DNA of 64,000 nt from Isoetes taiwanensis (Eukaryota > Streptophyta > Lycopodiopsida > Isoetales > Isoetaceae): assembly GCA_021234155.1 (NCBI GenBank), contig JAJEKV010000051.1, positions 4,344,698 to 4,408,697 of the forward strand, given 5' to 3'. The first letter of the stretch is position 1; each line of letters begins with the position of its first letter. The translations under genes and the position numbers were made by a program. The notes under the pieces were generated by a model that worked only from the letters and a program-made list of their open reading frames with translations, did no database searches and was not told where the DNA came from. Positions 15,050 through 48,035 of this stretch are shown piece by piece.

Positions 15050-15616
15050 CTGCACATTGGCAAGCTCTCAAGCGCATATTGAGGTATTTGAAACAAACCC
15101 CTCGTTCAAGGATTTGTTATCATGGAAACCATCTAGGTCCTTTCACTTTAGAGGGCATGGTTGATGCTGACTATGCAGGGGATGTGGCTTTCCGTAAATC
15201 ACGCACAGGCTTCATTTTTAAGCTGCAAGGGGGAGTTGTGAGTTGGACAAGTAAAAAGCAGAAGGCTACTGCAGTAAGCACCTGTGAATCCGAATATATG
15301 GCAATATGTGCAGCTACAAATGAAGCCATCTGGCTCAGGAGATTGCTTAAGAGCATTGGTTGTGAACAGAGAAATCTGACGATCATCATGAATGACAACA
15401 GGGCAGCTATATGTCTTGTGAAGAATCCCAGCAACTTTACAAAGGCCAAACATATTGAGACACAATACCATTTTACCAGAGAAAAGGTGGAAGAAGGCAA
15501 AGTTAACCATAACGCATTTGGAAACCCACCTTATGACTGCTGATGTATTGACTAAACCATTACCAAGGAAGAGGTTCTCCGAATGTGTGCAAGAGATGGG
15601 CATGAGCTCAGTTTGA
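15050..15616 (+). pseudogene. Copia RNase H domain, 3' end of pol
   Basis: The frame begins PAHWQALKRILRYLKQTPR, the normal link between reverse transcriptase and RNase H. It continues with VDADYAGDVAFRKSRTG, SWTSKKQKATAVSTCESEYM, AICAATNEAIWLRRLL and MNDNRAAICLVKNP, keeping the acidic residues of RNase H. One frameshift near 15,515 precedes ETHLMTADVLTKPLPRK and the stop at 15614-15616. Everything upstream of PAHW is absent here and is found on the minus strand at 46,475. Confidence 0.9.
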
Positions 15617-15913
15617 TACTGGGGAATGCAGCTATGATCAGGTAAGGAGTTAGTTAGTGATGCATTTTGTTAAGTAGGTGAAGGTTTCTGCAGGAAATCA
15701 TTAAGAGAACATGGTGGCAGATGGGCTCTTTTGGTCTACTGTGGTAAAGTTTTAGGGGGGAGCATTTTTTCAGGAAAAAAAAAAAAAAATAGTTGAGTAG
15801 TGCAGGCATCATTAACAGAACTTGGTGGCAAAAGTTCTTTCTTGTATTGTTGCAACTGGAGTCTTTCTAGGAGTTTAGATTTAGTCAGAGATAATGTTGT
15901 TGTCAGGTCAACC

Positions 15914-15924
15914 TTGAGGGGGAG
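15914..15924 (+). other. Polypurine tract of the Copia element
   Basis: TTGAGGGGGAG lies immediately before the 3' LTR, as required for plus-strand priming. Confidence 0.85.
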
Positions 15925-16119
15925 TGTTGGAAACTGGAAAGTATGGCAAGGTTGACGCTTGTCATATAGTTATGTGTTCCTAAATTACAGGACACGGTTG
16001 AAGATATCTCGGCATGCAGCCTGGCCCCTTTCTATATTAAGAATTCTGAGATGTATAAAGATAGATCTAATGAATGGAAACGCCACTTCTTCTGGTGTCA
16101 ATTTTTCTTAAGTGAATTA
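15925..16119 (+). repeat. 3' LTR of the split Copia element
   Basis: It starts TGTTGGAAACTGGAAAG and ends TTCTTAAGTGAATTA. It matches the LTR at 49,013-49,222 (minus) with one substitution and one 15-bp gap by eye. It is followed by AATTC at 16120-16124, equal to the five bases preceding the other LTR. The LTR ends in TA rather than the usual CA. Confidence 0.92.
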
Positions 16120-16309
16120 AATTCACTGGGGTTACAATCCATAATCATAACCATTTCTTGCCCGAAAGCATTTGAGAGTTAAGCCCCCCGGGTTTTGTTC
16201 GGTTACTAAAGTCTAATGGAATCAAATGCCAGAGCTAAGATCAAATTTTATGCTGATGAAATCAAACCCTGAATTGAAGCTTCAAAACCGAAAATAACAA
16301 AGTAATTAC

Positions 16310-16393
16310 CTGGTTTATGCAGGAGTTCACAAAATGCCAAAAGCTTTCAGGCCCAGAGGCTTCAATGGCTTTCTCCGCAGAGCACAAGCAGCG
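16310..16393 (-). other. Candidate host exon of unknown gene
   Basis: Between acceptor GGGGTAG and donor GTAATT the minus strand reads SAEKAIEASGPESFWHFVNS, 28 codons in phase 0. I do not recognise the protein. Before the inversion this exon would lie on the plus strand to the left of the Copia insertion, with the candidate exon at 49,386 to its right on the same strand. Confidence 0.4.
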
Positions 16394-17987
16394 CTACCCC
16401 CACAGCAGGGCCTGGTATTGGAAATCATAGAGGCAAATGTAGACCAGGGCTTACACAAGGCCCCCAAAAAAAGATAGTTATCAGTTTTATAATTTACTTT
16501 TTGTATTAAACCACTAAAATAAACTAATGTTACTAAGTGGGTTAATGTGTTGAATAACCATAGGCAGTTAAAGAGTGTAGTTTGCATTTAAGGTTTTTTA
16601 ACGTGGTATATTCATGTTGTAAATATCTATAGCTTTTCATTGTGGTTTGTTGCTATAGTTTTTTGCCATGGTTCTTCCTTGGTTTGTTGTTATGTGACAT
16701 GTGGGTGAATTAATAGTTTTATCTTTTAGTTTTCAATAGTATATGTTATTCCAAGATCTGGACCGTACATAGCGATCCTCGTTTGTGGGGTATGCATGTA
16801 CAAGTTTTTGTATACTGTATATTAAGGTTTGCAAAATACTATAAGGTTTGAGAGAATGTACTTAATGGTGTTAATTTTGTACATGTATTGTAAATATATT
16901 TTTGGAGCTCTCGCTGCCCTACGTAACCCCCCGTGTGAATATGCACCCAAACCAAAGGGGGTTTAAGGGGGATTTTAATTAAAATGTGTTAAATGCAATG
17001 GTTTGTGTTAATAATATTAATGGTAGTTGTGTGTTGATTGTTATATTAAAAAAAAATTTGGGCCCTTCGGGCCCTAACTAACGCAAACATAAGTAAATGT
17101 TATGGGCCTAAATATTAATTACTAAAAATCAAATGAGCAAATGCCACAGAAAATATTATGGGAACAAATGCGAGGAAAAGCATGTCTGAAGAAAATTGAA
17201 GAAAATTGAAAGGTGTAGAATGTAAGAACAACCAATCCTATGAACAGAGCAATAGAAATAAGGAATTGAAGTAGTATGATACAGATTCAGAAATATGTTG
17301 TTGCTAGTCTCTTCAACAATTTGGGATTTAGAAAGAAATCACACAAACATCAATCTTTTGCTAGTATAGGCCATTGCAACTCCACAAGAAACCATTAATT
17401 TGGCAGTTAAGCCAAACAGTACAAAAAAGAGCAATTGGACAGTACAAAAAAGAGCAATTGGAATGTATTGGCCACAATATTCTCTGGAACTTTGACATAA
17501 AATATCCTGAATGATGGAGTAAACCAAAACCCTTGTGATGTACCAATAAGTTCTAACTTGCTTGCCGGATACCTGCCGGTTGTTATTGGTGCTTCTTGAC
17601 CTCTTCAATCTGCTTCTGCAAGATCTAACACGGATGAACCAAAGTTATCATTATGAATAGATTTGGCAAGAAGAAATAACAGTGTGACAGAACATGGTTA
17701 GAGAATGATCAGACCAGCATATTGAGTCATCTTGAAAGCCAAATCTACTGCATTGTGCTACAATAAAGCTACAATAAAGCTACAATAAAGCTTAAGAAAG
17801 TAAATGCAAAAAATCCCTGCTATGACAGCCAGGATTCACAGAATTCCAGCTACAATAAGACATAGAGATATGCCAACACATTTGTAGAGCAAGTTTAGAG
17901 AGGACCAGCATAAGAAGACATGTTTTTTCACCCTTGCAAGGTGCTTGTCTATACTTGTCGCGCACCTTCAAATGAATAAGTAGCTCA
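16394..17987. other. Non-coding; holds one arm of the fold-back repeat
   Basis: About 16,760-17,085 carries the right arm of the fold-back family: GTGTGAATATGCACCC at 16,933-16,948, then the GGGGGTTTAAGGGGGATTTT tail and a GGGCCCTTCGGGCCC end. A triple CTACAATAAAG repeat lies at about 17,757-17,790. The rest shows no coding signal I trust. Confidence 0.5.
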
Positions 17988-18771
17988 TTAGCTTTCTTTC
18001 GCATCGAAGTTACTTAATTTTAGTACACTAGTCGCATCTTGTTCATAAGCCAATTGAAGCCCGGCCCGGAAAGTGCCACAGTCTACATCTACTTTTTGTT
18101 TCTTCGGCGCTCTATCAGCTTTTACCTTACAATCGCATAACAAATGTACTTAAGATTTTTGCTTGCCTTTATTATGCAAAGAATACAAATCAGAGATGTC
18201 ACATATCTAGCATCATGAAACTAAATTTCGGATGTGGTCGGGTCAGCCGTAGCTAGGCGAGTTTTGATTTATAACCAGTAGTGAAACTTTGGTCTAAAAC
18301 CTACTTAGGAATCAAAGAGCATAATCCGTCGCGAATTGTACCGAGAAATCAACGGCAAAGAACATACACACAAGGTGCCTTGCGTAGAATTCATCAAAGA
18401 TTATCTTGTGCATGTTCTCGCAATCGGCGGGATGAGATAAAAGTCCAAATGAACATAAGATCACGCTACCCGGAAAGGCATTCCACCAAAATTCGAGATC
18501 CACAAAAGAAGACGACAAATTTCAAAAACTTTACAGGGAATCATAACGTCTTTGCTTCTATGTCTGGAGAAGGTATTGACAGACCCACAAAGAACACAAG
18601 TCCATGCCCATCGATCGAAGTCGCCAAAGACCATTAATGTAAGCCCAAAGAGCTCTCACAACGGGGAAGAAGGTGCCCACCTTTACCTTGAAGAGCTGGA
18701 TTACCCCTTTCGTCCAAAGCTGCAAGAGGAGTAACGGAAACTCCCCATGGCAAACCTGATGCTTCTTGCAT
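17988..18771 (-). other. Possible minus-strand gene, two exon candidates
   Basis: A first-exon candidate at 18771-18687 starts ATG, reads ASGLPWGVSVTPLAALDERG and ends at donor GTAAAG. A terminal-exon candidate at 18125-17988 reads APKKQKVDVDCGTFRAGLQL and ends at a TAA after DAKES. Their phases do not fit directly, so an exon is missing between them or they are unrelated. I do not recognise the protein. Confidence 0.3.
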
Positions 18772-18944
18772 CTCTGAATTTGCTGGGCATTTTCCTAATG
18801 CTAGCCTTACCCAATCTCATCTCTTCTGGACTGAAGAGCAAGCCTCGATTATGGCATATAGAAAATCTCTTCCACCTAGCAACCCTAAAAAAAGCAGACC
18901 AAACCCTAATCCACACAAAAGCCTTCACCACAGGATTTGCCCTC

Positions 18945-19385
18945 TTTTCTAAAATCAACGGCTAACAAAAGGGTGCACTCTAGAAATACTATTTAGTACA
19001 CCTAGATGAATACGGCCACCAAATCATATGAAAACCTTAGAGAAAACAGTACAAAAACACAAAAAAACCCCCTGTTATAATGCTACATATTCATATTTTG
19101 AATTAGAAAAGGGATGTTAGTTTTGTAACGAAACTAAGACATGTCATTCGTAAACCAATAGTAGTTGTAGCTTCAAGGAATGTGCAATTCATGGTGGTTG
19201 TCCAATGAAACTATTGTTGTTCTCCAGGACAAATATATAGCATAATAACAGGGGGTTTTCTTTGTGTTTTTGTACGCTTTTCACTAAGGTTTTCCTATGA
19301 TTTCGTGATGTATTCAAATGGATGTACTAATGCGTACATCTAGAGTGCACCATTTCTGAGCCATTGATTTTAGCCTTTTTTTTCA
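18945..19385. repeat. Fold-back (long inverted repeat) element
   Basis: The left arm (about 18,945-19,095) reads CTCTAG...ACCCCCTGTTATAATGCTAC. The right arm (about 19,226-19,385) is its reverse complement, GTAGCATAATAACAGGGGGT-like ...CTAGAG, with about 130 bp between. The outer borders carry a shared CTAAAATCAA-GGCT block. No coding capacity. Confidence 0.7.
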
Positions 19386-20817
19386 ATGGTCAACAACCAA
19401 TGGCTCACAACAAAAGCCCTTTTTTTGTGCGTGTGGTGCATAATGGGCACATGAAGGGCCATTGATTTTAGCCTTTTCTTTCAATGGTCAACAACCAATG
19501 GCTCACAACAAAAGCCCTCTTTTTGTGTGTGTGGTGCATAATGGGCACATGAAGGGCTTGAAGGGCGCATGTAGTGCAGTTTCCCGCTGGCAACACATTT
19601 CTTATCATAACTTTTGATCCAAAGCTCTGTTTGAGATGATTTTTATTGCCTTGGAAAGCTCTCTCCGAGATCTTTTTGATAATGTATGATATGGATATGT
19701 TTGGTTAAGTTATCTATGCTAAAACAACAATTTTTCGGCCGGGTTTGGTAGGCTTTCACATCCTACCAGCTGATTAATATAGGATTGCGTTATTGGATAT
19801 TGTTTTATGGCTCATTCCGAATGAAGCTTGCAAAAAATTACCATGCATTTTTAGATTTTGAGGCAGTTATTAAGCAAATTCCAAGGCTTCTAGATCCTTG
19901 TGCTAACAAGCAGAAAAGTTTTCCACTTTGGTTTCTCACCACAAGAATCCATGGAGGCCAAAGGCTGCTGTTAAATTCTAGTTGAAAAATGTTTGTGTAT
20001 GGGTGTTGCAAACTTTATGACTTTCAACAAAAAAAAAAAACTTTATGACTTTCAGAAGAATAATGGGATCAATCTGCTCTATCTTTATGATAACTTTTAC
20101 TTATGTTCTATTTGTTTTATTGTGATCAAATTCAAAAGCTACAGGTGATGAAAGCCTCAAATGAATTCTAGTTTTTTTCTGGTTTAAATTCTAAAATTTT
20201 TGTCACACCGGAGGGGGGCCCTAAGGTCACCTTTGGTCGAGAAGGGCCAAAAAACTTTTTTTGCAACACAAACCATTAACATCCAACATATAAAAATTAA
20301 ATCCCCCAACACATAACAACCATTGACATTAACAACCAACACATAACTACCATTGACATTAATTAACACAACCATTGGGTCCAACACATTTAAATTAAAA
20401 TCCCCCTTAAACCCTCTTTGGTTTGGTCCCCCAACACATAACAACCAACACATAACAACCATTGACATTAACAACCAACACATAACTACCATTGACGTTA
20501 ATTAACACAACCATTGAGTCCAACACATTTAAATTAAAATCCCCCTTAAACCCCCTTTGGTTTGGGTGCATATTCACACGGGGGGTGACGTAGGGCAGTG
20601 AGAGCCCTCATAATTGTATTTTGCACGTACGAAATCAACACCATATAGTATTCCGCTTGAAATCTTACAGTATTTTGCGAATCTTGTTATACAGTATAGC
20701 AAATTTTGTGCATATCCCGCAAACGAGGAACTTTACGTACGGTGTAGATTAAGAAATAAGGGGTGAATATGCCTATCCAACATCTCTCGTTGCCCGGAGT
20801 CACCCCGTGTGAATATG
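19226..20817. repeat. Repeat module, copy A
   Basis: A head of about 950 bp begins ATAACAGGGGGTTTTC and ends at TTCTAGTTTTTTTCTGG. It is followed by a fold-back block whose left arm ends GGGTGCATATTCACACGG (20,564 onward) and whose right arm is truncated at GTGTGAATATG (20,817). The same head and tail order occurs at 23.7 and 25.2 kb. Contains no open frame of note. A diverged copy of the head start lies at 20,815-20,935. Confidence 0.8.
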
Positions 20818-21299
20818 TAGCATAATAACAGGGGGTTTTTTTTGTATTTTTGTACAGTTTTTGCTATGGTTTTCATATGATTTGATGGGCGTATTGCGCG
20901 AGGTGTACTAATCAGTATATCTAGAGTGTTCCTAGTATTTTTTTGATTAAAAATCCATTTCTCCATGGTTTACCCCTAACTTTCTTTTGTGAAAAGTCGA
21001 GCGCATGCAAAACTCGATTCTTCTATTCTAGGGTTTCTTTGTTCTTTTATTCATTCCTTTTTGTTTTTTCGTTCCGTCTCGTCTTTGGAATCAAGGATTC
21101 ATTTGCTCCAAGCTATGCTTTGAAATGCCTATGGCGGTCACCTTCTTCCGAATCGTGTACTGGCACCTATGACGGTCATGGAAATACAGAAGATCTTCTT
21201 CCGAATCGTGTACTGGCACAGAATCGTGTATTGTTGAAGGCATGGGCATTTCGTACCGTTTACTTCAGTGATTAGGTTTGAGCTTCTTTTCTCCTCTAA

Positions 21300-21630
21300 G
21301 TGCACATGGCATTTTCCAGGTAAATTTAATTCATGCAGATGATTCTGAAATGCCGAAATGTTCCTCAGATGCACCACCAGGAAAAGCCCTGGTTTCAAGG
21401 AAAGTAGGTGAAGAAAGAGCAATGTCTTAGAAGCCATCTGTGATAAAGCAAGAAAGAGTTTTCTCTATTGAAACAAGGCCAATTCACTATATTCCAAATC
21501 CCGCAACAAGTGTCTGGAGCTAAAACATCATTGGCGAAGTGTTCACCATTCCTGGAATTGACTCAAGTTTCCATCCTCCAGCAACAAAACTAGTAGAAAT
21601 TGAACCGTGGCATCTGATCTTGTGCTGATA
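21300..21630 (+). pseudogene. Unknown protein fragment with stops
   Basis: After TTTTCCAG the plus strand reads SEMPKCSSDAPPGKALVSRK and VFSIETRPIHYIPNPATSVW, then GEVFTIPGIDSSFHPPATK, interrupted by two in-frame stops. Composition is protein-like but I cannot name the family. Confidence 0.35.
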
Positions 21631-21706
21631 ATTCCAAGCTCCCAGTTAATTTCCTTCCTTTGATGTTTTGGTCAATCAAAACTTGGAGTTCAGGACTTGG
21701 GTTTTA

Positions 21707-22740
21707 TGTGTAGTTGGAACTAGATACCGTATGTGCTTCTTGTTTGCCTTTGTCATTTTCCACAAGGCCCATTAGCAATAAGCTGAAATTCCTCTTATCT
21801 CCACAAGGCCCATTAGCAATAAGCTAAAATTCCTCTTATCTATGAATGCAACGGCAATTGGGCAATGGTAAGAATGATAAGGAATTTATGACAGGGAATT
21901 TTATGTAGAGTAGTTGGCAGTGGTTAAGAATGATAGAGAATATAAAGAAAGGGCGGCTGAGCCCTGAGTCATGCAGTCCCTTTGAGAACATTAAACTGGC
22001 ATCTGCAGTTGTGGCTTCCAATAAAACCGATATGCAGCTCACAGATTACCTTTGCATTCCGACCTTATATTTGGAAGCGGTAAACTTTATATACTATGCT
22101 GCTTTAAGAAATGATGGCAAGACCAAATGATGTAATCATAATCACAGGTATGCATTTTTAAAAATGCCAGGGCTTCATTTTTTTTAATGTATGATCTCTA
22201 TTTTATTTACTTATTCTGGTTATGCATTTGCCAATTTAGTGATGTATGATCTTTGTCTCATTTTATTTGTGCTATACATTCACGAAACATGACTCTGGGC
22301 AAAGCTATTGCACATGATCTGTCTAAGAACCAATACACTATTAGCTGGTTTTCTGTGTAGTTGGAACTGGATACCGTATGTGCTTCTTGTTTGCCTTTAT
22401 CATTTTCCACAAGGCCCATTAGCAATAAGCTGAAATTCCTCTTATTTTCACAAGGCCCATTAGCAATAAGCTAAAATTCCTCTTATCCGTGGAATGCAAA
22501 GGCGGTTGGGCAATGGTGAGAATGATAAGGAATTTTATGACAGGGAACTTTATGTAGAGTAGTTGGCAGTGGTTAAGAATGATAGAGAATATAAAGAAAG
22601 GGCAGCTGAGCCCTGAGTCATGAAGAATTGTTGCAGTCCCTTTGAAAACATTATGTCGGGCATCCGCAAATCGTGGCTTCCAATAAAACTGATATGCAGC
22701 TCACGGATTACCTTTACCTTACCTTTACCTTGAAGCCTAC
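21707..22740. repeat. Direct duplication offset by 647 bp
   Basis: A block of roughly 350 bp beginning TAGTTGGAACTAGATACCGT at 21711 recurs at 22358. Inside each copy a 41-bp unit, CACAAGGCCCATTAGCAATA..., is itself repeated twice. The copies have diverged by substitutions and one insertion. Confidence 0.8.
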
Positions 22741-23404
22741 AGACTTGGTTGTCTTCTTCTTCACTCAATCGGGAAAACTAGCAGTGATCAATAAGGGATA
22801 TGAAATATTGTTCCGACAAAAACATGTTCTATATTGAACTAGTAAAAACAAGGGCAATCAGAGATATTCTAATGCAGAGTTCAAGTTATTTAGAAGTGAG
22901 ACCATTATTGCCATCTTCATTTTTGGGCTTAGGAGATAATGAAGAAGAAATGAGAATATCAGACAAAAGGTACCTAGAGTGGTTAGTTAAATAAAAAACA
23001 ATGTCAGTATTACATGTTTCATTTGGATCATGAGGCTATTGCGGGATTTTTAAGCCATTGTGGTTGGAATCCGACGTTCGATTCCCCAAGGGGGGTTTTA
23101 CCGCTTGTATATTTTTTGCGAATGTGTGTAAGAGATGCTTCTACAATATTGTAAATGTGTTAAGATGTCCTACCATAAAAACCATGTTGTGTTCGGGCCC
23201 AAAAATACACATTACCTCATTTAACTCATTTAATACAGTCTCTCTCATTGTTTCTAACATTTAGTATAGTTTATAGTTCCTAAATTTCTTTTATAATATC
23301 ATTATAATTTAAACGACCTGTTTATATGCAATACCTTTTCTAAGGCGCTGAATGTGCATTGCTCTTTGGATTTGCCCAAGCTTGATTCCTGGGGAGTTTG
23401 CTTT
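22741..23404. other. No gene seen
   Basis: Short open frames only. No splice-bordered exon or repeat boundary recognised. Confidence 0.35.
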
Positions 23405-23735
23405 GTGAGGGCCCGAAGGGCCCAAAAAAAAATTTCATATAACAAACAACACATATCTACTATTAATATTAATTAACACAAACCATTGCATTTAACACAT
23501 TCAAATTAAAATCCCCCTAAAACCCCCTTTGGTTTGGGTGCATATTCACACGGGGGGTGACTCCGGGCATCGAGAGCTGTTGGATAGGCATATTCACCCT
23601 TTATTCCTTAATCTACACCGTACATAAAATTCCTCGTTTGTGGGGTATCCATGTACAAAATTTGCTATACTGTATAACAAGATTTACAAAGTACTATAAG
23701 ATTTGAGGTAAGATTTGAGATTTGAATGTGTGAAT
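23405..23735. repeat. Fold-back family arm, partial
   Basis: Starts GGGCCCGAAGGGCCC, continues with the AACACATTCAAATTAAAATC block and GGGTGCATATTCACACGG at 23,536, then passes into the loop sequence. It is joined to the head of module B at about 23,735. Confidence 0.7.
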
Positions 23736-25207
23736 ATGTGGCATAATAACAGGGGGTTTTCTTTGTGTTTTTGTACGCGTTTTACTAAGGTTTTCCTATA
23801 ATTTCGTGATGTATTCAAATGGATGTATTAATGCGTACATCTAGAGTGCACCATTTCTGAGCCATTGATTTTAGCCTTTTTTTTTCCAATGGTCAACAAC
23901 CAATGACTCACAACAAAAGCCCTTTTTTTGTGCGTGTGGTGCATAATGGTCAACAACCAATGGCTCACAACAAAAGCCCTCTTTTTGTGTGTGTGGTGCA
24001 CAATGGGCACATGAAGGGCTTGAAGGGCGCATGTAGTGCAGTTTCCCCGCCGACAACACATTTCTTATCATAACTTTTGATTTAGAGCTCTGTTTGAGAT
24101 GATTTTTATTGCGTTGGAAAGCTCTCTCTCTGGGATCTTTTTGATAGTGTATGATATGGATATGTTTGGTTAAGATATCTATGCTAAAACAGCAATTTTT
24201 TGGCCGGATTTGGTAGGCTTTCACATCCTACCAGCTGATTAATACAGGATTGCGCTATTGGATATTGTTTTATGGCTCATTCCGAATGAAGCTTGCAAAA
24301 AATTACCATGCATTTTTAGATTTTGAGGCGGTTATTAAGCAAATTCCAAGGCTTCTAGATCCTTGTGCTAACAAGCAGAAAAGTTTCCCACTTTAGTTTC
24401 TCACCACAAGAATCCATGGAGGCCAAAGGCTGCTGTTAAATTCCAGTTCAAAAATGTTTGTGTATGGGTGTTGGAAACTTTATGACTTTCAGAAAAATGG
24501 GATCAATCTGCTCTATCTTTATGGTAACTTTTACTTATGTTCTATTTGTTTTATTGTGATGAAATTCAAAAGCTACAGGTGATGAAAGCCTCAAATGAAT
24601 TCTAGTTTTTTTCTGGTTTGAATTCTAAAATTTTTGTCACACCTAAGTCCCTAAGGCCCCCGGGGCCAAAATTTTTTTTTTGCAACACAAACCATTAACA
24701 TCCAACATATAAAAATTAAATCCCCCAACACATAACAACCATTGACATTAACAACCAACACATAACTACCATTGACATTAATTAACACAACCATTGGGTC
24801 CAACACATTTAAATTAAAATCCCCCTTAAACCCCCTTTGGTTTGGGTGCATATTCACACGGGGGGTGACGTAGGGCAGCGAGAGCCCTCATAATTGTATT
24901 TTGCACATACAAAATCAACACCATATAGTATTCCGCTTGAAATCTTATACTATTTTGCGAATCTTGTTATATAGTATGGCAAATTTTGTACTTGCATACC
25001 CCACAAACGAGGAACTTTACGTACGGTGTAGATTAAGGAATAAGGGGTGAATATGCCTATCCAACAGCTCTCGTTGCCCGGAGTCACCCCCGTATGAATA
25101 TGCACCCAAACGAAAGGGGGTTTAAGGGGGATTTTAATTTAAATGTATTGGACCCAATGGTTGTGTTAATTAATGTCAATGGTAGTTATGTGTTCGTTGT
25201 TAATGTC
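23735..25207. repeat. Repeat module, copy B
   Basis: Same order as copy A: head from ATAACAGGGGGTTTTC, then a fold-back block. Here the inner inverted repeat is complete, from GGGTGCATATTCACACGG at 24,844 to GTATGAATATGCACCC at 25,107. Confidence 0.85.
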
Positions 25208-26795
25208 AATGGTGAATATGTAGCATAATAACAGAGGATTTTCTTTGTGTTTTTGTGCGCTTTTCACTAAGGTTTTCTTATGATTTCGTGATGTATTCAA
25301 ATGGATGTACTAATGCGTACATCTAGAGTGCACCATTTCTGAGCCATTGATTTTAGCATTTTTTTTTCAATGGTCAACAATCAATGGCTCACAACAAAAG
25401 CCCTTTTTATGTGCGTGTGGTGCATAATGGGCACATGAAGGGCATTGATTTTAGCCTTTTTTTCCAATGGTCAACAACCAATGACTCACAACAAAAGCCC
25501 TCTTTTTGTGTGTGTGGTGTATAATGGGCACATGAAGGGCTTTGAAGGTCGCATGTAGTGCAATTTCCCCGCCGGCAGCACATTTCTTATCATAACTTTT
25601 GATCCAGAGCTCTGTTTGAGATGATTTTTATTGCGTTAGAAAGCTCTCTCCGAGATCTTTTTGATAGTGTATGATATGGATATGTTTGGTTAAGTTATCT
25701 ATGCTAAAACAGCAATTTTTCGGCCGGGTTTGGTAGGCTTTCACATCCTACCAGCTGATTAATACAGGATTGCGCTATTGGATATTGTTTTATGGCTCAT
25801 TCTGAATGAAGCTTGCAAAAAATTACCATGCATTTTTAGATTTTGAGGCAGTTATTAAGCAAATTCCAAGGCTTCTAGATCCTTGTGCTAACAATTAGAA
25901 AAGTTTCCCACTTTGGTTTCTCACCACAAGAATCCATGGAGGCCAAAGGCTTCTATTAAAGTCTAGTTGAAAAATGTTTGTGTATGGGTGTTGCAAACTT
26001 TATGACTTTCAGAATAATGGGATCAATCTGCCCTATCTTTATGGTAACTTTTACTTATGTTCTATTTGTTTTATTGTGATCAAATTCAAAAGCTACAGGT
26101 GATGAAAGCCTCAAATGAATTCTAGTTTTTTTCTAGTTTGTGTTCTAGTCCCTAAGGCCCCGAAGGGGCCAAAAAAAATTCTTTGCAACACAAACTATTA
26201 ACATCCAACATATAAAAATTAAATCCCCCAACACATAACAACCATTGACATTAACAACCAACACATAACTACCATTGACATTAATTAACACAACCATTGG
26301 GTCCAACACATTTAAATTAAAATCCCCCTTAAACCCCCTTTGGTTTGGGTGCATATTCACATGGGGGGTGACGTAGGGCAGCGAGAGCCCTCATAATTGT
26401 ATTTTGCACGTACAAAATCAACACCATATAGTATTCCACTTGAATTCTTATAGTATTTTGCGAATCTTGTTATACAGTATAGCAAATTTTGTACTTGCAT
26501 ACTTCACAAATGAGGAACTTTACGTACGGTGTAGATTAAGGAATAAGGGGTGAATATGCCTATCCAAAAGCTCTCGTTGCCTGGAGTCACCCCGTGTGAA
26601 TATATGCACCCAAACCAAAGGGGGTTTAAGGGGGATTTTAATTTAAATGTGTTGGACCCAATGGTTGTGTTAATTAATGTCAATGGTAGTTATGTGTTGT
26701 TAATGTCAATGGTTGTTATGTGTTGGTTGTTATGTGTTAGTTGTTATGTGTTGGGGGATTTAATTTTTATATGTTGGATGTTAATGGTTCAAGTT
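25208..26795. repeat. Repeat module, copy C, with full fold-back
   Basis: The head starts at about 25,215. The fold-back block runs from about 26,150 to 26,795. The left arm CCATTAACATCCAACATAT-like ... GGGTGCATATTCACATG is matched by the right arm GTGTGAATATATGCACCC ... ATATGTTGGATGTTAATGG. Arms are near 200 bp and the loop about 180 bp. It could be transcribed into a long hairpin RNA. Confidence 0.85.
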
Positions 26796-28384: not shown

Positions 28385-28519
28385 GCTCCAGCTCCTCCTT
28401 AATAAGGATCCAGTGTTAAGAATCCTCTATCTTCGAACAAACACATCAATAGAATCCAAAGCAACGATCCTGATTGTGTTCTCACCAAGATGTGGGGCAA
28501 CCTCAAAAACAAGCCTGAC
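28385..28519 (-). pseudogene. Mitochondrial ATP synthase beta-subunit fragment
   Basis: The minus strand reads VRLVFEVAPHLGENTIRIVA, then LDSIDVFVRR, a stop, and RILNTGS. This is the N-terminal beta-barrel block of the F1 beta subunit, where the intact protein has LVLEVAPHLGENTVR and RGQRVLNTGSP. The TAG replaces the glutamine codon after VRR. No further beta-subunit block was found on either side, so this is a relic of one exon or a short insertion of gene sequence. Only about 38 residues match. Confidence 0.8.
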
Positions 28520-32807: not shown

Positions 32808-32956
32808 CTGCCCATAGCACAGTCTACATTTCCAGATTTTCCTTTACCAGAAAGGGGCCTTTTATGGTGCATGCTCGAATAGCCCAGTTCCCAGATCCAC
32901 AGTTGAATAGTCAATACATGTGAAAAGAAAAGTATCCACATATTTTGGAAAGGTCC

Positions 32957-33392
32957 GACGGTTAGATGTGCTACAAATGCATATCAGCTTTGCGGACCGG
33001 GTGGGGGGGAAGGGAAGAAAACATTGGACGACCATCTTGGACACTACAAGAACCGGTTGCTCCGCAGTGTTCAGACTGCAATAATACCTTAGAGATGAAG
33101 TTTTGTGGCCATCTGATATATTGTCACCTCCACGTGTTCAATTCCTAGTTGAACATGGGACTTGATACATTACTGTGGCTGTTCTAGACTTTGGACCCTT
33201 CTCCCCTTCCCATAAAAATTGGTCCCTAGGGTAATGGTAGTCTGAACACCATGGTGCAATTGGTTCGTCGGAGTATCTGGAATGGTCATCCAGTGCTGCA
33301 TCCCCCTTGTCCTCAAGGGCTGATGTGCATTTGTAGCACTTCCAACCATCTGATGTTGCGAATGACCTACCATTGTGCAAACTACAAATCAT
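32957..33392. repeat. Diverged inverted repeat at the array start
   Basis: The plus strand from about 32,957 (GTGCTACAAATGCATATCAG) and the minus strand from 33,392 (GTGCTACAAATGCACATCAG) share a block of about 150 bp in opposite orientation, including TTCAGACT and GGACGACCAT phrases. Read as protein, both give CYKC followed by APQCSDC or APWCSD. I cannot say whether this was ever coding. Confidence 0.65.
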
Positions 33393-36300: not shown

Positions 36301-36901
36301 TTACACGTTTTTATTGCAAAAATATGCAATTTGTGATTCTAAACAATTCATAGCTATCTTGTGAAAATTAATGGATTTTAATTAGTAATGCTCGCTTTAA
36401 TAGCATGCATGATTTTGCTGAAATTGATTTGTTGGATGAAGAAAAAGTATATGTGTTGTCTGTTGTTGTTGTAGACATAGTAAAGTAGAAACATATGTGG
36501 TTTGTTTGATGTTTATAGGATAGGTTACATGTTGATGGATGCAGCAAAACAAATTTGTCGTGTCAAATAACAATATGTCTTTAATCATGCAGGTACACAA
36601 CGAAGTTCTTAACTATTGAGCTAGATGATTATTGATACACCATAACATAAGCTATAATAACACTTAATAAATCATTTGTGATTGCAAGGGCCATATTGTC
36701 ATCCATGTTTCTTGAAGACAATGAATCTATCTTCAAACCATTCCATTATTCATTTAGATGAATTAAAAAAACATTACTAGTTTTATTAAACTAGTAATAA
36801 TTTTAGTTTGTGTTTGAAATGGTCCTATAAACTACAACTAGTTTTAACAAACCACTATCTTATTATTAGCTGATATAAATAACCATGTTGTAAACCACTA
36901 T
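33023..36901. repeat. Four tandem copies of a 967-970 bp unit
   Basis: The landmark AGAGATGAAG recurs at 33,091, 34,058, 35,027 and 35,997, giving units starting near 33,023, 33,990, 34,959 and 35,929. Copies differ at few positions, so amplification is recent. Each unit contains one complete right arm of the inverted repeat and part of the left arm. A minus-strand frame of 84-85 codons (SDGWKCYKCTSALEDKG) is open in copies 1, 3 and 4 and disturbed in copy 2. A second 67-codon minus-strand frame occurs in all four. Confidence 0.95.
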
Positions 36902-37034
36902 TCAAGTTGACAAACCACTATAGCATGTGGTTTTCTGCTATCAAATAAATTCTTGTACAAAAAACCATGTCCATCATAGTTTTTAGATTATCTAATACCA
37001 TTTTATTATGGTAGTTCATTTTTGGGTGCCTTGT

Positions 37035-38480
37035 GTTACAACATCTAGCCAATGGAAAAACGCAGGACCTGGATGGAATGCAGGCAGAGCTGCTCAAATG
37101 GGTGGGACCATCCATAGTATCGGTACTAGCCACCATGGTCAACGGGGCATTACAGGATGGTTTTCTCCCGCAAAGGACCATTAGCAGAGTTATCCCCATA
37201 TACGAGGTAGGTGATCCAAACTGCTCAGCCAATTATCAAATCATAAAGTTCAGCTCGATATTTGTGAAAGTGTTGGCCGGGTTTCTCAAGCAGCAGTTGA
37301 CAATATGGATAGGGGCAGCAGGCGTGCGGGCTCTCGCACATGCAGGGTTCAGGCTGGGCACTCAACTCTTGATCATATCTTCACACTGCAGACCCTGGTT
37401 GAGGACAACAGGGACCATCAGCAAGATCTCTATTGCTGCTTTGTGGACTTCACAAAGGCTTTTGACACAGTGCCTGAGGAAAAACTATTGGTAAGATTGC
37501 AACAGCTGGGGGTCCCCGTAGACCTACAAAATGTTGTGTACAGACTGTAAGAGACATGCTTATGCTGGTTGCAGCATAGAGGCCAGCCATTCAATAGCAA
37601 TATCGGGTCCATCAGGGATGCCCTCTTTCTTCTACATTGTTTGAACTATACATTGATCAGTTGGAGAGATGGCTTGCTGAAAATGGGGGCGACAGAGCTC
37701 ATCTCTTGCACCATATTGTCAGGTAGCTAACATATGCTCATGATTTGGACCTCCCGACTTAGACTTCGGTAGACATGCAGTGCCATCTCGATGCCATGGA
37801 CACATTTTGCCAAGCGACTGATGTGCGTGTCAATTTGGCCAAGATTAAGGTGGTCCTCACATCGCATCAGCCAAGGGCTCCCTCCTTCAGCTATCGCATG
37901 CAAAGTGTGGAAGTGGCACCCGCATGTAAATACTTAGGAGTGGAGTTCCCCTCTGCTATGCACTGGGAACTACTAGCCACTACATCTACAGGCAACAACG
38001 GGCTGAAAGGGGCTTTATGCAATACAAAACAACAGTCATAGAGTGGAGCTATATGATTGGGGCCATCGGCCGCACCTCTTCAAGGTATTGGTGGAGCCTA
38101 TCCTTTTGTACGGGGTCAATGTCTAGGGCCCCATGGCCTCCTTCGCTATCTGAAATGACTTGGAGCAAGTGCAGAAAGCCTCATTGACTCGAGCACTAGG
38201 GGTGAAGTCCACGGTGCCATAATCCTATTGCAAGAGACAAGATTCTTGCCCCTTCAGAGGGCGGCCCTTAATCATCACATTGTCTACTTTCAGAAAAAGC
38301 GAGCTTAGTGGCTCGCCAGATATGCAGGAGCACAGGTGCATACAAGTACAAAAAGAAGCAGACCGCTATAGCTCGAGGCAATACCTAGATGCTTGCTTCC
38401 TCCACAAGCTCTGGGATGCATAGTACCTTAAAGGCATGCACTTGTGTGGTGCCAAGAGAGGTTTATCCATGAAATAACTT
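37035..38480 (+). pseudogene. LINE (non-LTR) reverse transcriptase, decayed
   Basis: Starts NGKTQDLDGMQAELLKW, then LPQRTISRVIPIYEVGDPN (fingers), HSTLDHIFTLQTLVEDNRD and CCFVDFTKAFDTVPEEKL, the motif A region with its Asp. A damaged stretch follows where the catalytic DD motif would be (SYICS-like, TYAHDLDL). Then come VNLAKIKVVLTS and ACKYLGVEF, and the post-polymerase block VEPILLYGVNVWGP-like, QKASLTRALGV and LPLQRAALNHHIVYF. At least three frame changes and several stops are present. It begins at the edge of the tandem array, so its 5' part is lost. Confidence 0.85.
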
Positions 38481-39284
38481 CAATTGCCTCATATGTCAGT
38501 TGCTCCAATTCTAGTATGCAAGCCTTTGGATGTTATATTAATACTAAGCCCATAGAAACAAAGATGATGAATTTTTCACTTGTTGACTTCTTCCAAGCAA
38601 AAATTTGGAGTAAAGGATAATCAATAGCAAGTACATGTAGAGTAAGATTCAAATGAGATGCCCGAGGTCGAGATGCTCCATGTTTGCAGTAAAAAAAGTC
38701 CATATCCATATGCAATGACTTGTGTTTGTGCCCTCGTCTCCTCAATCCTTCTTAGTTACTTGGCCAGAAGAGAAATCTCCTTAGCAAGGGCAAGAGCTTT
38801 CTTTTCACTAGCATTTCTCGATCACTGATGTATGCTATAGCTTTTCTCCAGAACTCCTCGTGACCAAAACTCTCATATTACGACAAAAAACTTTTCCTGA
38901 ACAAACCTCGCCCGTTTGGAGCCCGCCAATCAACTTCCGCCCACACACCACGGATCCCAGATCCCCCTCGTTGATCAATATGATGCTGCTCCCATCCGGT
39001 GTTTCTACACACCACAGATGGTTGATCTTTCTCAGCTGATTTCCCCTGAGTTAATAATCGTCCACCTGCACAGTAGGCCCAATTCGACCACCAGAAGACA
39101 TGACCTTCTCTGTGATCACCACCGCAGGTTCATGCTGCCAAATCGGAAGCTACTATCAAGTCTCAATCCAATCAGATGTCTCTAGCTATAGAACCAGCCA
39201 CGGGGGGTTCACCTTTATCACATGAGCATATGCCACCTGCGTGCTTAAGGTGAGAAGAGACACCCCTATATACGTACGCAAAAG
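38481..39284. other. No gene seen
   Basis: Lies between the LINE remnant and the Gypsy LTR. An 89-residue plus-strand frame at 38,916-39,185 has no recognisable motif. Confidence 0.35.
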
Positions 39285-40055
39285 TGTTGGAAAAAACCCC
39301 TTCCGTGGATAAAACACACTAGAATGTCAGTAAGAGGGGGATTTAAACCCCTAGTATACGTACGAAAACGTCGAGAAAAAACCCCCTTCCATACACTCAC
39401 TAGGTTTATACGGGTCTTCTGTGTGAATCCCCCATGGAACCAGCTTCTTTCTCCAAACCCAATTCCGGCAGCCCCCCAGATGAATTCATTCTCCAGGCTT
39501 TATAATGTAGCCTCCGGAGTTCACCACAGTCTTCTTTAGTCCAAATTCGACCTGCCAAGCCTTAGATTTGATCCGAATTGCAGCTTTCACCCACGACTCT
39601 CAGATCTGCCATTCCGGGTCTGATACAGATTCGTCCGGCTGTTCAATAACATGTTTTTTTCCCATCAAACCATTTAATGCCACGTGTCCATATAACCATT
39701 ATATTTTAACATAGCTAACTTTTATTCTTTTATATTAATGTTTCAACCCCTAGTGCTAACATTCATACTACTAACATTAACGAATAACGTTAACCATACA
39801 TTAATATAAATGACAGATCTCGCAAGCTCTTCTTCCGCACTAATATTATTCGATAATATTAGTGCCCCTAGCGACCCATTATCCATCCCTATCAACCATT
39901 GTCTCTTATTCCGCATTCCGTCACCATAGACTGATTACAGCCAACATGGCCCATTAATCACAACTGTCTGGCAATTGCAACTAACATTAACCCCATGCTC
40001 ATGGACATCCGTCAAGGGTCCGATTCCGGCTATACCCTTGGGAGCACCTGTAACA
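39285..40055 (-). repeat. Probable 3' LTR of a Gypsy element
   Basis: The start (minus strand TGTTACAGGTGC at 40,055) is fixed by the adjoining polypurine tract. A TATA-like ATTATAAAG occurs on the minus strand near 39,505. The left end at TGTTGG (39,285) would give CAACA as terminus, but with no second LTR it is a guess. A diverged pair of ACGTACG...AAAAAACCCC phrases lies at 39,270-39,400. Confidence 0.5.
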
Positions 40056-40072
40056 TTCCTCCCCCTCCTTTT
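40056..40072 (-). other. Polypurine tract of the Gypsy element
   Basis: On the minus strand AAAAGGAGGGGGAGGAA directly precedes the LTR start TGTTAC. Confidence 0.75.
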
Positions 40073-40113
40073 GGACCTTGTCCTCAAGGTTGATCTTTTA
40101 GACGAGGGAACTG

Positions 40114-41500
40114 CTACACAAATTCCTCCGTCTCCCAGGTGGCATCCTCAGGAGACTGGTCCTGCCACTGAACCAGATGTTCTACCACATCCCTATTGCG
40201 CAGCCGCCGAACTCTTTTATCCAAAAGACATTCTGGCATTACAGAGGAGTTTAAGACAATTGGTACACTTCGCGGACTAACCACATTAGAGGTATCCAGT
40301 ATAGCTCTTTTCAGCTGACTTACGTGAAACACAGAATCGATTCCTATTTCCTGCAGTAAGTTCAACTCGTACGCTGTTTTCTCGATCCTTTTAGTAATCT
40401 TAAAAGGTCCAGCATACCGCAGAGTAAGTTTGGGCACCCGACCTTTAGTCAAAGGCCACAAACTGTTCATTCTTAACAAGGAAGGATAAACAACCCTTAG
40501 GAAAATATAATCACCTTTCGCATAAAAGATATCACATCTATGATGATTAGCGGACGCTTACTTGCATTGCTGCAAGATTGCATCCATATCATGGAGCATA
40601 TGTACTGCAACTTCGGTTCGGAGGTATTTATGTATACTGAATAAGACCTTGGATTTTGACCCATCATAGCCACAAAGGCAGTCATCCGAATTCCCGTATG
40701 ATGGCTATTATTGTAGGCAAACTCTAGATAGGGTAGATAATCTTCCCACCTGGATTGCTTCTCATGGACAAAGCTTCGCAACATATCCTCTAGGATCATA
40801 TTTATGCGCTCGGTTTGCCCGTCCGTCTGTGGATGATTTCCACTACTCATGTACAATCGGATCCTCAATCCTTTCATGAGATCTCTCCAGAAGTGACCCG
40901 TGAACTTAGTATCCCGATCACTTACAATGGACAAGGGAAGTCCGAAAGTTGGAAATATGTGTTGCATATAGGCAACTACTACGTCATGTCCCCTAGCCTC
41001 CCCTTTTAATGCTATGAACTTAGCATACTTGGTTAACAGATCCACTACCACCAAAATTTGAATATGTTGCCTAGCAATTCTAGGTAATGCGACTATAAAG
41101 TCTATACTCACGCTCTCCCAGCGTTCATTTGGTATAGGGAAGGGTTGTAATAATCCCAGGGCTTTCCCATGATCCGTCTTCACAGCTTGACACACCAAGT
41201 AGTGACTTACCAAGTCCTTGACTTGATCTTGCAACTCTGGCCAGTAGTAGAACCTTTTAACCAATTCATACGTTTTCCATTCACCTCCATGCCCAGCTTG
41301 TGGAGTATCATGATGCTCATGCAGAATTAACTCCCTAAGATTTCCACTCGAAGGAACATAAATCCTTCCTTTGTAAAAATAAAAATAGTCCTGTGCTTTG
41401 GGGCACGTGACTAACACCAGCCCCCCGTAACCCAGCCTCATGCCCGGGAACACCAACAACCTAATGCCCCCTCGCATGACGAGCTTTTTTGGGAAGACCA
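40114..41500 (-). pseudogene. Ty3/Gypsy chromovirus integrase and chromodomain
   Basis: The minus strand gives the zinc-binding segment HEHHDTPQAGHGG...RFYYWPELQ, with one cysteine of the C-C pair lost in SHYLVCQAVK. The integrase core has the first Asp in SVSIDFIVALP, the second in VSDRDTKFTGHFW and the Glu in HPQTDGQTERIN. After one frameshift near 40,550 it continues as DIFYAKGDYIFLRV, RYAGPFKITKRIEKTAYELN and VFHVSQLKRAI. It ends with a chromodomain, VEHLVQWQDQSPEDATWE. Chromodomains steer insertion to particular chromatin. Reverse transcriptase and gag are absent; similarity starts at about 41,410. Confidence 0.92.
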
Positions 41501-41639
41501 AGTGGTTGGACCATCACGAAAATGGCCCAAGCAGATGGCAAGGATAAGGGAGAAGCCTCTTCCACGAGGAAGGATGCATGGACGAAGGCCCAATCAATAA
41601 GGCCGGCCTGACAGACTGTTGATAGTTGTTTAGGCCCCA

Positions 41640-42240
41640 CGGTAAATTAGACATTGACAGATACTTTGAAACATCTCGTGGCGAGAATTGAAGGTAACAA
41701 TATCGAAATTACATGCTTCACAGAAGAGGTGCAGTCCTCAATGCCCCACGTGCTAAAAGGCAATTGGAGACCCGCACCCAGCAAATGGAAGATGACATCT
41801 AGTTCGCAACACTTCGAGAGGCAGTAGGACAAGAAGGATCTTGCCAACCTACGTGCTCGCACGGAATTGTCCATCATCATGGAAGCCATAACACAGGATA
41901 GGCAATGGGCCGAGCAGGAGACGATAGCAACCATCTCTCGCCTTCGAAAAGAAGTTGAGAAGGCTACCAGCATGGCAAGAGGTGTCCAGGCGACCTTTGT
42001 GGAGAGCCAGTCACAGCTGAAAGCCCTTCAGAGTAAGATCGACTCATGGGAAGTGCCCTCATCAGCAGTGAACCCTGCCCTGAACACCTTCTCGTTGGAA
42101 CTCGAGCACAACTCGCTGCTCGAGACCAGGCGGTGCAGAAGCTGCAGGCGGCTATCATGAGCAAGGCAATGGCCTCCATGCAGAGGCTCATGAACAACTG
42201 CAACGATGCATGCATGAATTGTCAAGGCAACAACAATTCT
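41640..42240 (+). pseudogene. Coiled-coil protein fragment with frameshifts
   Basis: Reading across three frames gives TLKHLVARIEGNNIEITCFT, then RQLETRTQQMEDDI, LSIIMEAITQDRQWAEQETI, SRLRKEVEKATSMARG and RAQLAARDQAVQKLQAAI, all heptad-like. Frame changes fall near 41,725, 41,820 and 42,060, and stops are present. It may derive from a retroelement gag or a host coiled-coil gene; I cannot tell. Confidence 0.5.
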
Positions 42241-43379
42241 CGAGGGAGTCATTTATGTAATAAGGGATATACCACCTGTGTTCATGTGATTGTAAGAAAA
42301 CCCCTAGAATGTTTGTTTTTAGCTAAAAGTTCCTCACATACAGTGTTTAGATTTCCTTTATTTGCAGCCCCTCTCGGCTTTGAATGTCATATTATCATTT
42401 ATGATCCCCCCCATGTTTGGATTTCATTATATTCGTCGCCCCTGTCGATTTTATACAACATTTCATTATTGAAAAACCCCTCATACACAATTGAATCTGC
42501 CATTAAAAAGTTCCTCTTGTACAATTTTATGTAGCCTTTAATGTTGCATCCATGTTCATACCTTTTTTATGATTGACAACATAGCATACTAATCAAGAAA
42601 ATTGTGATAATTGATGCTAGCTAGGTTACTGTTTTGAATAACCCTATGTAATGTGCAGTCTATAAACTTGCCATGGCTGGGAAAAAATCATGCTTCTGTT
42701 GGATGACAATCATTGGTCACAATATCGAGATGTAAAACTATATCCTAAACTTCTTCTTCATTAATTAAGGAAAAACATACAAATTTATTTGTTAGCCTTC
42801 GAGAATAGGCATGCTAAAGCAAAGCAAAGTTAAAATAGTTATAAAGATCCAAAGTGTTCACTTTTTTTTTCTTGCCTCCAAAAATAGAGAATCCAAGTCT
42901 TCAGTGAGCACGAAAATAAGGAATCTTGAGCTTTCTTGAACAAAATAGGTGTTCTGAGAATATGTAGGTCAATATTATCCAAGTAGATCTTTGATCTTCG
43001 GCACCACCAAAATGATGAGAAAAAAGAGGGGAAAACAAGGCAGGAGTGGGTAAAAGAAAGCTAGGGTGTCTAAAAAAAATGCCCTTACATTATGTATAAT
43101 GTAGGGCATGTAGGCACCCGTTTTTGTTATTTTTTTGAATTTTAGTTAGTTGGGATATGTAATCATTAGGAGTAGCCACGTCAGCAATTCAAAATTATGA
43201 GTGGCAGTGGCAACTAGAACGGACCTTCATTGCAATTTTTCGGAGGGAGATTGCGAAGTGTTTCCTGTTTAGGAAAAAAAATTGCCGCCGTTCCAATTTT
43301 TTGTGTTTGTGAGTGACCAACGAAGTAATTCGACTGTAACTTATTCTTCTTCCTCGAAATCCTTGCCCAAATCCAAGCA
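42241..43379. other. AT-rich spacer with a small hairpin
   Basis: TGCCCTTACATTAT (43,080-43,093) and ATAATGTAGGGCA (43,096-43,108) form an inverted repeat with a one-base bulge, set in GGGTGTC...GGCACCC borders. It resembles a tiny inverted-repeat element. The last 100 bp before 43,380 would be the leader of the next gene. Confidence 0.5.
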
Positions 43380-46300
43380 ATGGACACCTTTGCCTCCCAG
43401 AAGTCACCCAGATTAAACAAGAATTTGAAAATAGTCGATTCTAGCAAGAAAGCCGAAAAAAACAAGAGGAAGGTTCAAGCTTCTGAGGAACCAGGGCCAA
43501 AAAGAAGACTTATTTGTGAAGAACCCGCTGTTGTGGAAGCAAAGCATGTAAGATGTGTCAATGTAGATGAAATTTTTCCAGATTTACAACAGATAATGGA
43601 CGAGCAGTGGGGACCCAAAGACATACGGGGGTTCAAAGAATCTAGCGTGAAGCCAGAGTGGGCCGAGAACTTCTACAAACATTATGAAATTGTTTTTGGT
43701 AAGCGGGAGGTCACAAATCGCCATGTACCTGAGTACTTTGCTCGTGCATTTGCCCTTCAATTGACAGGTAAAAAAGTAGATTGGGATACTTTTAAAGTTT
43801 TGGCCAAAGATTTGGCAAAGGGAGGAGCAAAAGAATCTGCTATTACAGAAGAAATTGGGACCTCTAAATCCACATCCAAGGTTCCTAAATTTCAGCAAGG
43901 ATTTTACCCTAAGGAAGAGCTTGAATTTGCGTAAACTCACATTGCTGCGGCAAGTGTCATGAAGAGTTAATTAGCAAAGACATCCAAGGTTGAAGAACTG
44001 AAAATTCAGCAGCAGTTATTATGTGACAATATAAATAAGATTTCGTGAAGAAAGGATGCACATGAAGAGGACCTAGACATCAATAGTGTTCTCGACGACG
44101 CTAAAGCGTAAAGAGAGACATCAATAGGAGGTTGACCTTTTGATGAGGGATAGAACCAGAAGGAAGAAATGTTGAAGAGAATTCAGAGCCATTGGAGAAA
44201 GCCATTCGGGAAAAGGAGTTATGTGAAAAGAGGATTGCGGAACTTGAGGAGGCTCACAAAGTTCAGTTTGAGTGCTGCAGACGGCTTGATGATATGCATA
44301 AGTACATGATGCATTCCTGCAGCAATTCTCCTTCAGCCCAAAACAAGCTTAGTGACCTCTCCAGCTGAAGCAAAATTCATATCTATGCATGGATGTGTAT
44401 TTTGTAGTAATGGCTTTGCTAATAATGAACCTATCCTAGTTGCTCCATGCGAGCATTCATTTCATATCTTCTGTTTCTCATATTCTATTTCTGCTGGACT
44501 ATCCTGCCCAAGAGCATGCAAATGGGACGAAAACATTTCAAAGATCTTGGGTGTGTACACTGGAGGCAAGCAAGATTTTCATGATTTATGTTTAATTTGT
44601 CGCACCCGTGATTACCGCAATGTAGAATCCATTTACATGTAGAATCCATTTACATGTAGATTGCTTTGCACTTAAGGTTTTGCTACAAAGATGTAGGAGT
44701 GTATTGGTTATTTTATACTTATAGTTCCATGGCTTGCATGTCATACGATATGTGTTTCTTACATACATGTTGTACATTCACGATGTAGGGTCCTAGATGT
44801 AGAACTTAAATACATAAAATTAGGAGTTGTATATCGAGTTTTGTGGCGTAACATTTAGAGGTATTTTATGTAATGTCCGATGTGTACATGTGCATACATT
44901 GAGCACATTCATGTACATTACATGTACATTCCATCTAGATAAATAGTCATTTTACATGTGTATGTACTTAAAGTACTTCAATGTAGATCGATTCTAGTAA
45001 TATGTACCGCTATTGTTCAACGAATAGTTAGAGACCCATTAGTTTGAGACCCGATATCCGACCGTTATGTGATTTATTTTCGAGCTTCAAAGTGCCAAAA
45101 AAACCGAAAGCGTAAATTACACCACGATCGGTAGCTTGTTTTTCAAATTGTTTTGCATTGTGTCAGAGGAAGCAATTTCTTATTCTTGGTTCGGTTTTCA
45201 CAGTTTTGGAGGTTCCAAAGAAAATTGAGGTGCAAGATGTAGCCGAGGGAAAGAAAGCAGTGATTGAAGGAAAAAGCAAAATCACTATTCCTACGGTGAT
45301 ACAGGTTGAGGAGGCTGGCACTTCAGGTCTGCATGGTGACATTCCAGATTATGACGAGGAACTCGAGAGATTGAGGGAGCAGGCTAAGGCCACATCTTCA
45401 AAAGTAAAGGCAGCAGCAGAAAATGTGACTCCAAAGAAGAAGTCCACGCCTAAAAAGCCACAGAAGAAGACAATTAAAGCAGTAGAAACAGGTAAGAAAG
45501 CATTTTATTTCAGTGTACAGCAGCTGAGAAGTCCATGACATCCTATGTTTACAGGTCCTAATGAAGAGGAATCTTCCGAGCGCCAAGATCTAGAGCAGGA
45601 TACTCTTAAGTTTGTGTCAAATCTTGCTTCTGACATAGTAAAGGAGGCTGAATTTCATGACAATGAGAAATCAGGAGAGGTTGAAGACGAGGATTCTGGA
45701 CCTAATAAGAATCTGAGTGAGGAAACCAAAAAAGAAGGGAAGGAAATGGATACTGACTCCGAGAAAACAGTATCAGCAGAGCATAAGAATGATCTCTATA
45801 GGTAACTTGATCTACATATCTTACATTTTTTTTTACATCTAGTATCCAAGTTAAAAACTTTAAAATAATATGGATAGTAGTAGATGAATGTAGATGATTT
45901 GTGTAAATGTACTGGTCATTGAACCCAGACTGCAGTTCTGAATACAGGCCATATGATGCCTTGCTCAACCGAATGATGAAGCTCAAGAAGGCAAGGATTT
46001 TCCCAGGATCTTTGCCTGAAATGGAGTGTTATTTATTTGAACAAGATGTGTTGGACATGGATGTGGGAAAATTTTCCAACCGGCATGTGGATATGTATGC
46101 CAGGTACTGGACTTTGAACTTATTCATTTGTATATGGAAGTCAAGTTAGTAATTTTATCCTTTTCAACTTGTTATAGGTACCTGCAGCTCTGTGTTCCAG
46201 ATGATAAGAAGGCCGACGTCTGGTTCTTCCCACCGGACAGCTTCATGGAATTTGCAGCATACTGCAAAGCAAGCGAAAACGATAAATCTATGGCAGCCTC

Positions 46301-46474
46301 CGAGCGTGAAAGAGATATTGTAAAGGTAGCTCTTACAGGGATAAATTGGCTGAAGTGCAGATGGATCATGATTCCAATGCTATGTAGAGTTACTGAACAT
46401 CACACTTTGGCCATCTTCAACATGGCACTTACTAAGAGTAAGAACACCATCAACATTCAGATCTTCAATTCACA
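43380..46474 (+). pseudogene. RING-like/Ulp1 protease gene, N-terminal part
   Basis: The first frame opens at ATG 43,380 with a basic N-terminus and runs to a stop at 43,932. Stops also interrupt the coiled-coil stretch up to 44,330. A cysteine-rich block at about 44,364-44,640 (HGCVFCSNGF, PCEHSFHIFCF, LSCPRACKW) is RING-like. Exons ending at 45,491 and spanning 45,555-45,801 encode a Lys/Glu-rich linker. Exons 45,936-46,103 and 46,178-46,474 encode the start of a Ulp1 protease: YLQLCVPDDKKADVWFFPP, then WIMIPMLCRVTEHHTLAIFN with the catalytic His. The usual Asp position reads Asn (IQIFNS). Splice borders and phases of the last exons fit. At 46,475 it runs into Copia sequence. The missing Gln-Cys half is at 14,479-15,049. 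Confidence 0.8.
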
Positions 46475-47414: not shown

Positions 47415-47534
47415 TCTCTCATGCTAGATCTAATTGATATTTGCTGCTGCAGCACTCAAAGCAATAGAGGGACTTTGAGACCACCTGAGTCTATATATAC
47501 CTTCATCCTTATTTCCTTCAGCCAAAACATCTTC

Positions 47535-48032: not shown

Positions 48033-48035
48033 CAG

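Follow-up and report, generated by a model that had tools for sequence, protein, structure and literature searches.

We analyzed a stretch of 64,000 nucleotides from Isoetes taiwanensis (hereafter the window; C1058:4,344,698-4,408,697, within a 10.4-Mb contig of an assembly of 1.66 Gb in 1110 contigs), in which a Copia retrotransposon and a repeated unit encoding a Ulp1-like protease are each split into two distant pieces. Both joins that the original prediction attributed to an inversion exist, and a single flip of positions 15,047-46,471 (31,425 bp) mends both split elements. We consider it probable, at about 0.87, that the Copia element inserted first and that two breaks in cis were then rejoined in inverted orientation through classical end joining. 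According to this explanation, two double-strand breaks would have arisen 31.4 kb apart on one chromosome, one inside a copy of a DNA transposon that carries the Ulp1-like unit and the other inside a young Copia insertion, and the intervening segment would have been rejoined in reverse through classical non-homologous end joining.

Joins of the inverted segment

The two joins are present in the sequence as given, 3 bp to the left of the points first proposed for them (15,049/15,050 and 46,474/46,475; Table 1 gives the corrected positions). Each was compared with the rest of the genome. For the sequence around the left join (14,800-15,300; best 40 of 384 candidates), 38 matches covered 14,800-15,046 only, at 97-98% identity, one covered only the sequence from 15,044 onward, and one was the window itself. 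The result for the right join (46,225-46,724; best 40 of 263 candidates) was similar: 38 matches ended at 46,470-46,471 (95-98% identity), one began at 46,472, and one was again the window. Neither join was spanned by any other place among these best 40 matches per query; a second place with either join would have spoken against the inversion.

At the break points themselves, both elements are uninterrupted in copies elsewhere. The two halves of the Ulp1-like unit are adjacent in 15 of the 16 other places that were read across the break point, with 22 intervening bases in 11 of these and 20-21 in the other 4. In the sixteenth (L015, on C1096), the sequence continues for 11 bases past the break point, is then interrupted by a separate internal deletion, and resumes further down the unit. 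That this deletion, near locus position 1760, starts only 11 bases past the break of the window copy may reflect chance or a weak spot. The comparison of the flipped joins with other Copia copies, which the original prediction had proposed, agreed with it in two of two places (C1053 and C1107): both are uninterrupted at the break point, with 4 bases between the halves, and the copy on C1107 (L014) runs from reverse transcriptase (RT) through RNase H into the 3' long terminal repeat (LTR). The RNase H piece also has 15 relatives among proteins, and the 6 that were aligned are all continuous across the same RT-RNase H point.

Because the pre-inversion sequences can be read from these other copies, the extent of loss and of microhomology can be given at base resolution. 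Relative to the other copies, approximately 22 bp are missing at the Ulp1 break and 4 bp at the Copia break, which replaces the earlier estimate of 6-10 bases per join. Microhomology is 0 and there is no filler, since at neither join does a flanking base agree with the one expected from the other partner. No inverted match of at least 11 bp was found between 14,050-16,050 and 45,474-47,474, and a self-comparison of 12-19 kb against 43-50 kb returned the LTR pair only, which would have been in direct orientation before the flip. Homologous recombination is therefore unlikely. The more general proposal of recombination between inverted repeats, or of an aberrant transposition reaction, would account for the position of both breakpoints inside transposons, and in Brassica napus the transposon families found most often at the breakpoints of inversions are Copia and Gypsy, according to PMC12599057. 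However, the 1 kb on either side of the joins contains no inverted repeat of at least 11 bp, and the joins are internal to the elements rather than at an LTR or a terminal repeat, which makes this proposal very improbable. The reciprocal joins mended by one flip, the small losses and the lack of long homology, microhomology, filler and nearby inverted repeats are what an inversion by end joining would be expected to leave, and the compatibility with end joining that had been suggested earlier is thus retained.

An assembly error, with the segment inverted in the assembly only, has to be weighed against the same data. Both broken elements are repeats, where assemblers err, and the present order is read from the assembly sequence. 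On the other hand, the window contains no N and both joins lie in mid-contig; the partners share no sequence at the joins, so that neither resembles an overlap; no template for either join occurs among the best 40 matches per query; and bases are missing at both joins, a loss that a scaffold flip would not cause. An error of this kind appears unlikely, and, judging from the assembled sequence, the inversion is probably present in the plant as well.

One Copia insertion

The two Copia pieces are parts of one insertion, because their LTRs are nearly identical, they share the target duplication AATTC, and both of their flanks occur in one repeat elsewhere. As had been read from the sequence at the outset, the LTRs differ by one substitution (194 of 195 aligned sites are identical) and one 15-bp gap, and AATTC stands immediately outside both; the chance agreement of two random 5-mers from the window is 0.0014. 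A purine-rich tract and a TGGTATCAGAGC primer-type site, which we take to be of the tRNA-Met type, adjoin the LTRs. The element has the domain order of Ty1-copia (integrase, RT, RNase H), as seen in another genomic copy and in each window piece separately, together with two LTRs and a 5-bp target duplication. Relative to L014, about 1.2 kb have been deleted internally at 46,983/46,990; the element also contains in-frame stops. A search with the gag protein gave 1 distant match out of 2732 candidates, and nothing related to the Copia pieces was found among the PDB sequences.

The flanks of the insertion are now 33 kb apart in the window. Four loci (L040-L043) were fetched through a match to the right flank, 49,223-49,313, and the comparison of the left flank covered these four and 36 other loci (196 kb). 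In L042, a match to 16,202-16,378 (176 bp, approximately 93%) and the right-flank match both fall within 800 bp, arranged and oriented as they would be with the flip undone, whereas no match to 16,120-16,620 was found in the 36 other loci. The left flank alone scored 283.7 in L042, 53.4 in L041 (weak, in the same place), 23.8 in L043 and 20.1 in L040. In a control with 300 random 500-bp pieces of the window, 3 scored above 43 and all of them overlapped the left flank itself. A control with 200 random joined flanks, the best of which scored 43, is unfair to L040, L041 and L043, which were chosen by their right-flank match; judged by the left flank alone, L042 is distinct, and L041 weakly so. 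These three loci show an empty site, gapless over 10-14 left-side bases (5 of which are the duplication) and 56-86 right-side bases, with identities of 92/96, 92/99 and 66/70 in L040, L041 and L043, respectively.

This evidence also bears on the idea of a chance arrangement, in which neither the two Copia fragments nor the two Ulp1 fragments would be related to each other. Both families are indeed present elsewhere in the genome. However, chance would have to provide LTRs identical at 194 of 195 sites with equal 5-bp duplications, two Copia flanks that belong to one repeat elsewhere, and a Copia element that resumes within 4 bp alongside a Ulp1-like unit that resumes within about 22 bp. We regard a chance arrangement as the least probable of the explanations considered.

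The flip is younger than the Copia insertion, as had been proposed. The single substitution among 195 sites gives the insertion a central age of 0.2 million years at a substitution rate of 1.3e-8 per site and year, 0.4 million years at 7e-9 and 1.2 million years at 2.2e-9, with an overall range of 0.005-6.5 million years. The age of the Copia LTRs consequently sets only a loose upper bound on the age of the inversion. The description of the inversion as dated holds for this bound and not beyond it, as the range extends over about three orders of magnitude and depends on one substitution.

The Ulp1-like unit and its transposon

The original prediction described the second broken element as a single gene resembling a SUMO protease. 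This does not hold, and we reject the reading of the unit as a single host gene: it has matches of 97-98% identity in no fewer than 38 other places, it lies inside an 8.9-kb transposon, and the copy in the window lacks one transposon end. Two full copies of the transposon were read, one of 8,884 bp on C1037 (L024 and L027) and one of 8,881 bp on C1013 (L025 and L028). Both have 24-bp inverted ends starting with GGGTA, and their 4-bp duplications are TCTA and TGTC. The full element contains Ulp1-like exons, RING-like exons, an open reading frame (ORF) for a NIF-type phosphatase (PF03031, E 5e-18) and an unclassified ORF that bears the motifs MDFAENY and SGHGKGEHDG; Pfam returned nothing above its cut-off for the possible transposase ORF. 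The window copy is 91-98% identical to the eight copies compared and, beyond 13,018, lacks one terminal repeat and the distal part, which amounts to about 3.4 kb. The consequence of the inversion is two split transposon copies, and the data show no effect on any single-copy host gene.

The C-terminal piece of the protein scored 15.6 bits (E 0.015) against Pfam Peptidase_C48 (PF02902), for which the cut-off is 20.7 bits, and for this reason we call it Ulp1-like only. It has a Q..DSCG motif, which is presumably typical of C48. Joining the two halves brought no gain (15.5 bits), so that Pfam alone is no proof that the N-terminal half belongs with the C-terminal half; the genomic copies supply that proof. 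It is through these copies alone that the N-terminal half is linked to the Ulp1-like C-terminal half, and in one of them the frame is continuous across the point. The fold of the N-terminal half, modelled without relatives, reached a pLDDT of 54, and its structure matches, none of which is a Ulp1, are untrustworthy. The joined protein gave one weak match among the PDB sequences (E 0.019), confined to the C-terminal half, and the Ulp1 protein query had no match in 121 candidates.

We tentatively suggest, at somewhat less than even odds, that the Ulp1-like gene is part of an undescribed lineage of plant DNA transposons, 8.9 kb long, with 24-bp inverted ends, 4-bp duplications and dozens of young copies, which would encode a Ulp1-like protease, a RING-like finger, a NIF-type phosphatase and, as a possible transposase, the unclassified ORF. 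If true, this would be a mobile element bearing three protein-modification genes, and such a transposon may be of greater interest than the inversion. As a separate observation, a Gypsy-type integrase followed by a chromodomain lies at 40,114-41,501 on the minus strand of the window, and a stretch 87% identical to it is found on C960 beside a copy of the Ulp1-carrying transposon.

Table 1. Positions in the window of the inverted segment, its joins and the two split elements.
Feature	Position	Strand	Remarks
Inverted segment, 31,425 bp	15047..46471		C1058:4,359,744-4,391,168; both elements uninterrupted here in copies elsewhere
Left join, blunt	15046..15047		Ulp1-like unit (minus) meets Copia RNase H (plus)
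Right join, blunt	46471..46472		Ulp1-like unit (plus) meets Copia RT (minus)
Copia 3' part	15047..15924	+	RNase H, purine-rich tract
Copia 3' LTR, 195 bp	15925..16119	+	
Target duplication AATTC, copy 1	16120..16124	+	
Copia downstream flank	16120..16378		16,202-16,378 matches L042, a locus that also holds the other flank
Copia 5' part	46472..49012	-	gag, zinc knuckle, beta-barrel domain, truncated integrase, RT tail
Copia 5' LTR, 210 bp	49013..49222	-	
Target duplication AATTC, copy 2	49223..49227	-	GAATT on the plus strand
Copia upstream flank	49223..49313	+	Part of a repeat with copies on C13, C1018, C1044 and C907
3' part of Ulp1-carrying transposon copy	13018..15046	-	Match to full copies stops at 13,018
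5' part of Ulp1-carrying transposon copy	43048..46471	+	Terminal repeat end at 43,048, RING-like exon, Ulp1-like N-terminal exons
C-terminal exons of Ulp1-like protease	14482..15046	-	~15,030-15,046, 14,735-14,924 and 14,482-14,628; Q..DSCG motif

The remainder of the window contains further repeats. Related repeats in both orientations are clustered at 16,746-27,081; three of the units, each about 1.1-1.5 kb long, lie at 19,232, 23,733 and 25,215. In a tandem array at 33,025-36,901, a unit of about 970 bp is present four times with 97.4-97.7% identity, and a 374-bp direct repeat (52,457-52,830 and 57,699-58,072; 99.5% identical) has its copies 5.2 kb apart. The start of a protein with a legume-lectin domain (PF00139, E 5.9e-08) lies at 60,824-61,270 on the plus strand; this domain and the retrotransposons give the sequence a plant-like appearance. 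Searches against plasmids and viral contigs gave no match, Rfam had no match in the window at the gathering score, and there is no tRNA in the window.

Counter-evidence and comparison with known systems

Several observations weigh against the explanation by two breaks and classical end joining, or against parts of it. In irradiated Arabidopsis, according to PMC8581144, most inversion junctions carry microhomology and little sequence is lost, only a few nucleotides; classical end joining is held responsible for 6 of 23 inversions with insertions or deletions below 10 bp. The joins in the window have no microhomology, and the loss of about 22 bp exceeds that under-10-bp class. An un-inverted haplotype was not found in the assembly, in a search that was partial. 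With respect to the single Copia insertion, two of the four right-flank loci (L040 and L043) are without the left flank, and the empty site in three of the four has just 10-14 contiguous left-side bases, which taken alone is weak for the left side. Furthermore, the distance to the longer left match is approximately 510 bp in L042, compared with 68 bp in the window, a difference implying that the locus in the window underwent changes of its own. Finally, the nearest-relative rankings of the two Ulp1 halves across the 8 copies agree only loosely (rho 0.62, p 0.10).

As biology, the inversion is a clear case of ordinary break-and-rejoin repair. It resembles the end-joining inversions of irradiated Arabidopsis (PMC8581144) in being reciprocal, in the loss of a few to tens of bases and in the lack of long homology; it differs from them in that there is no known treatment, the segment measures 31 kb, microhomology is zero and both breaks fall within transposons.

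The Copia element shares with Ty1-copia the gag, zinc knuckle, integrase, RVT_2 and RNase H domains, LTRs of the form TG..TA, the 5-bp duplication and the TGGTATCAGAGC primer-type site, and departs from it through its 1.2-kb internal deletion, its stops and its division by the inversion.

A Ulp1-like protease on a repeated DNA element is also known from Kaonashi and other MULEs without terminal inverted repeats (non-TIR MULEs; PMC13317346) and from Ginger1 (PMC2836005). The family in the window has instead 24-bp ends starting with GGGTA, the duplications TCTA and TGTC, and NIF-phosphatase-like and RING-like genes. The 24-bp inverted ends in both full copies do not fit the non-TIR MULEs (Kaonashi). 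Ginger1 has CCGG or CCGT target duplications and TGTNR ends, according to PMC2836005, and the TCTA and TGTC duplications and the GGGTA ends do not fit it, again in two of two full copies.

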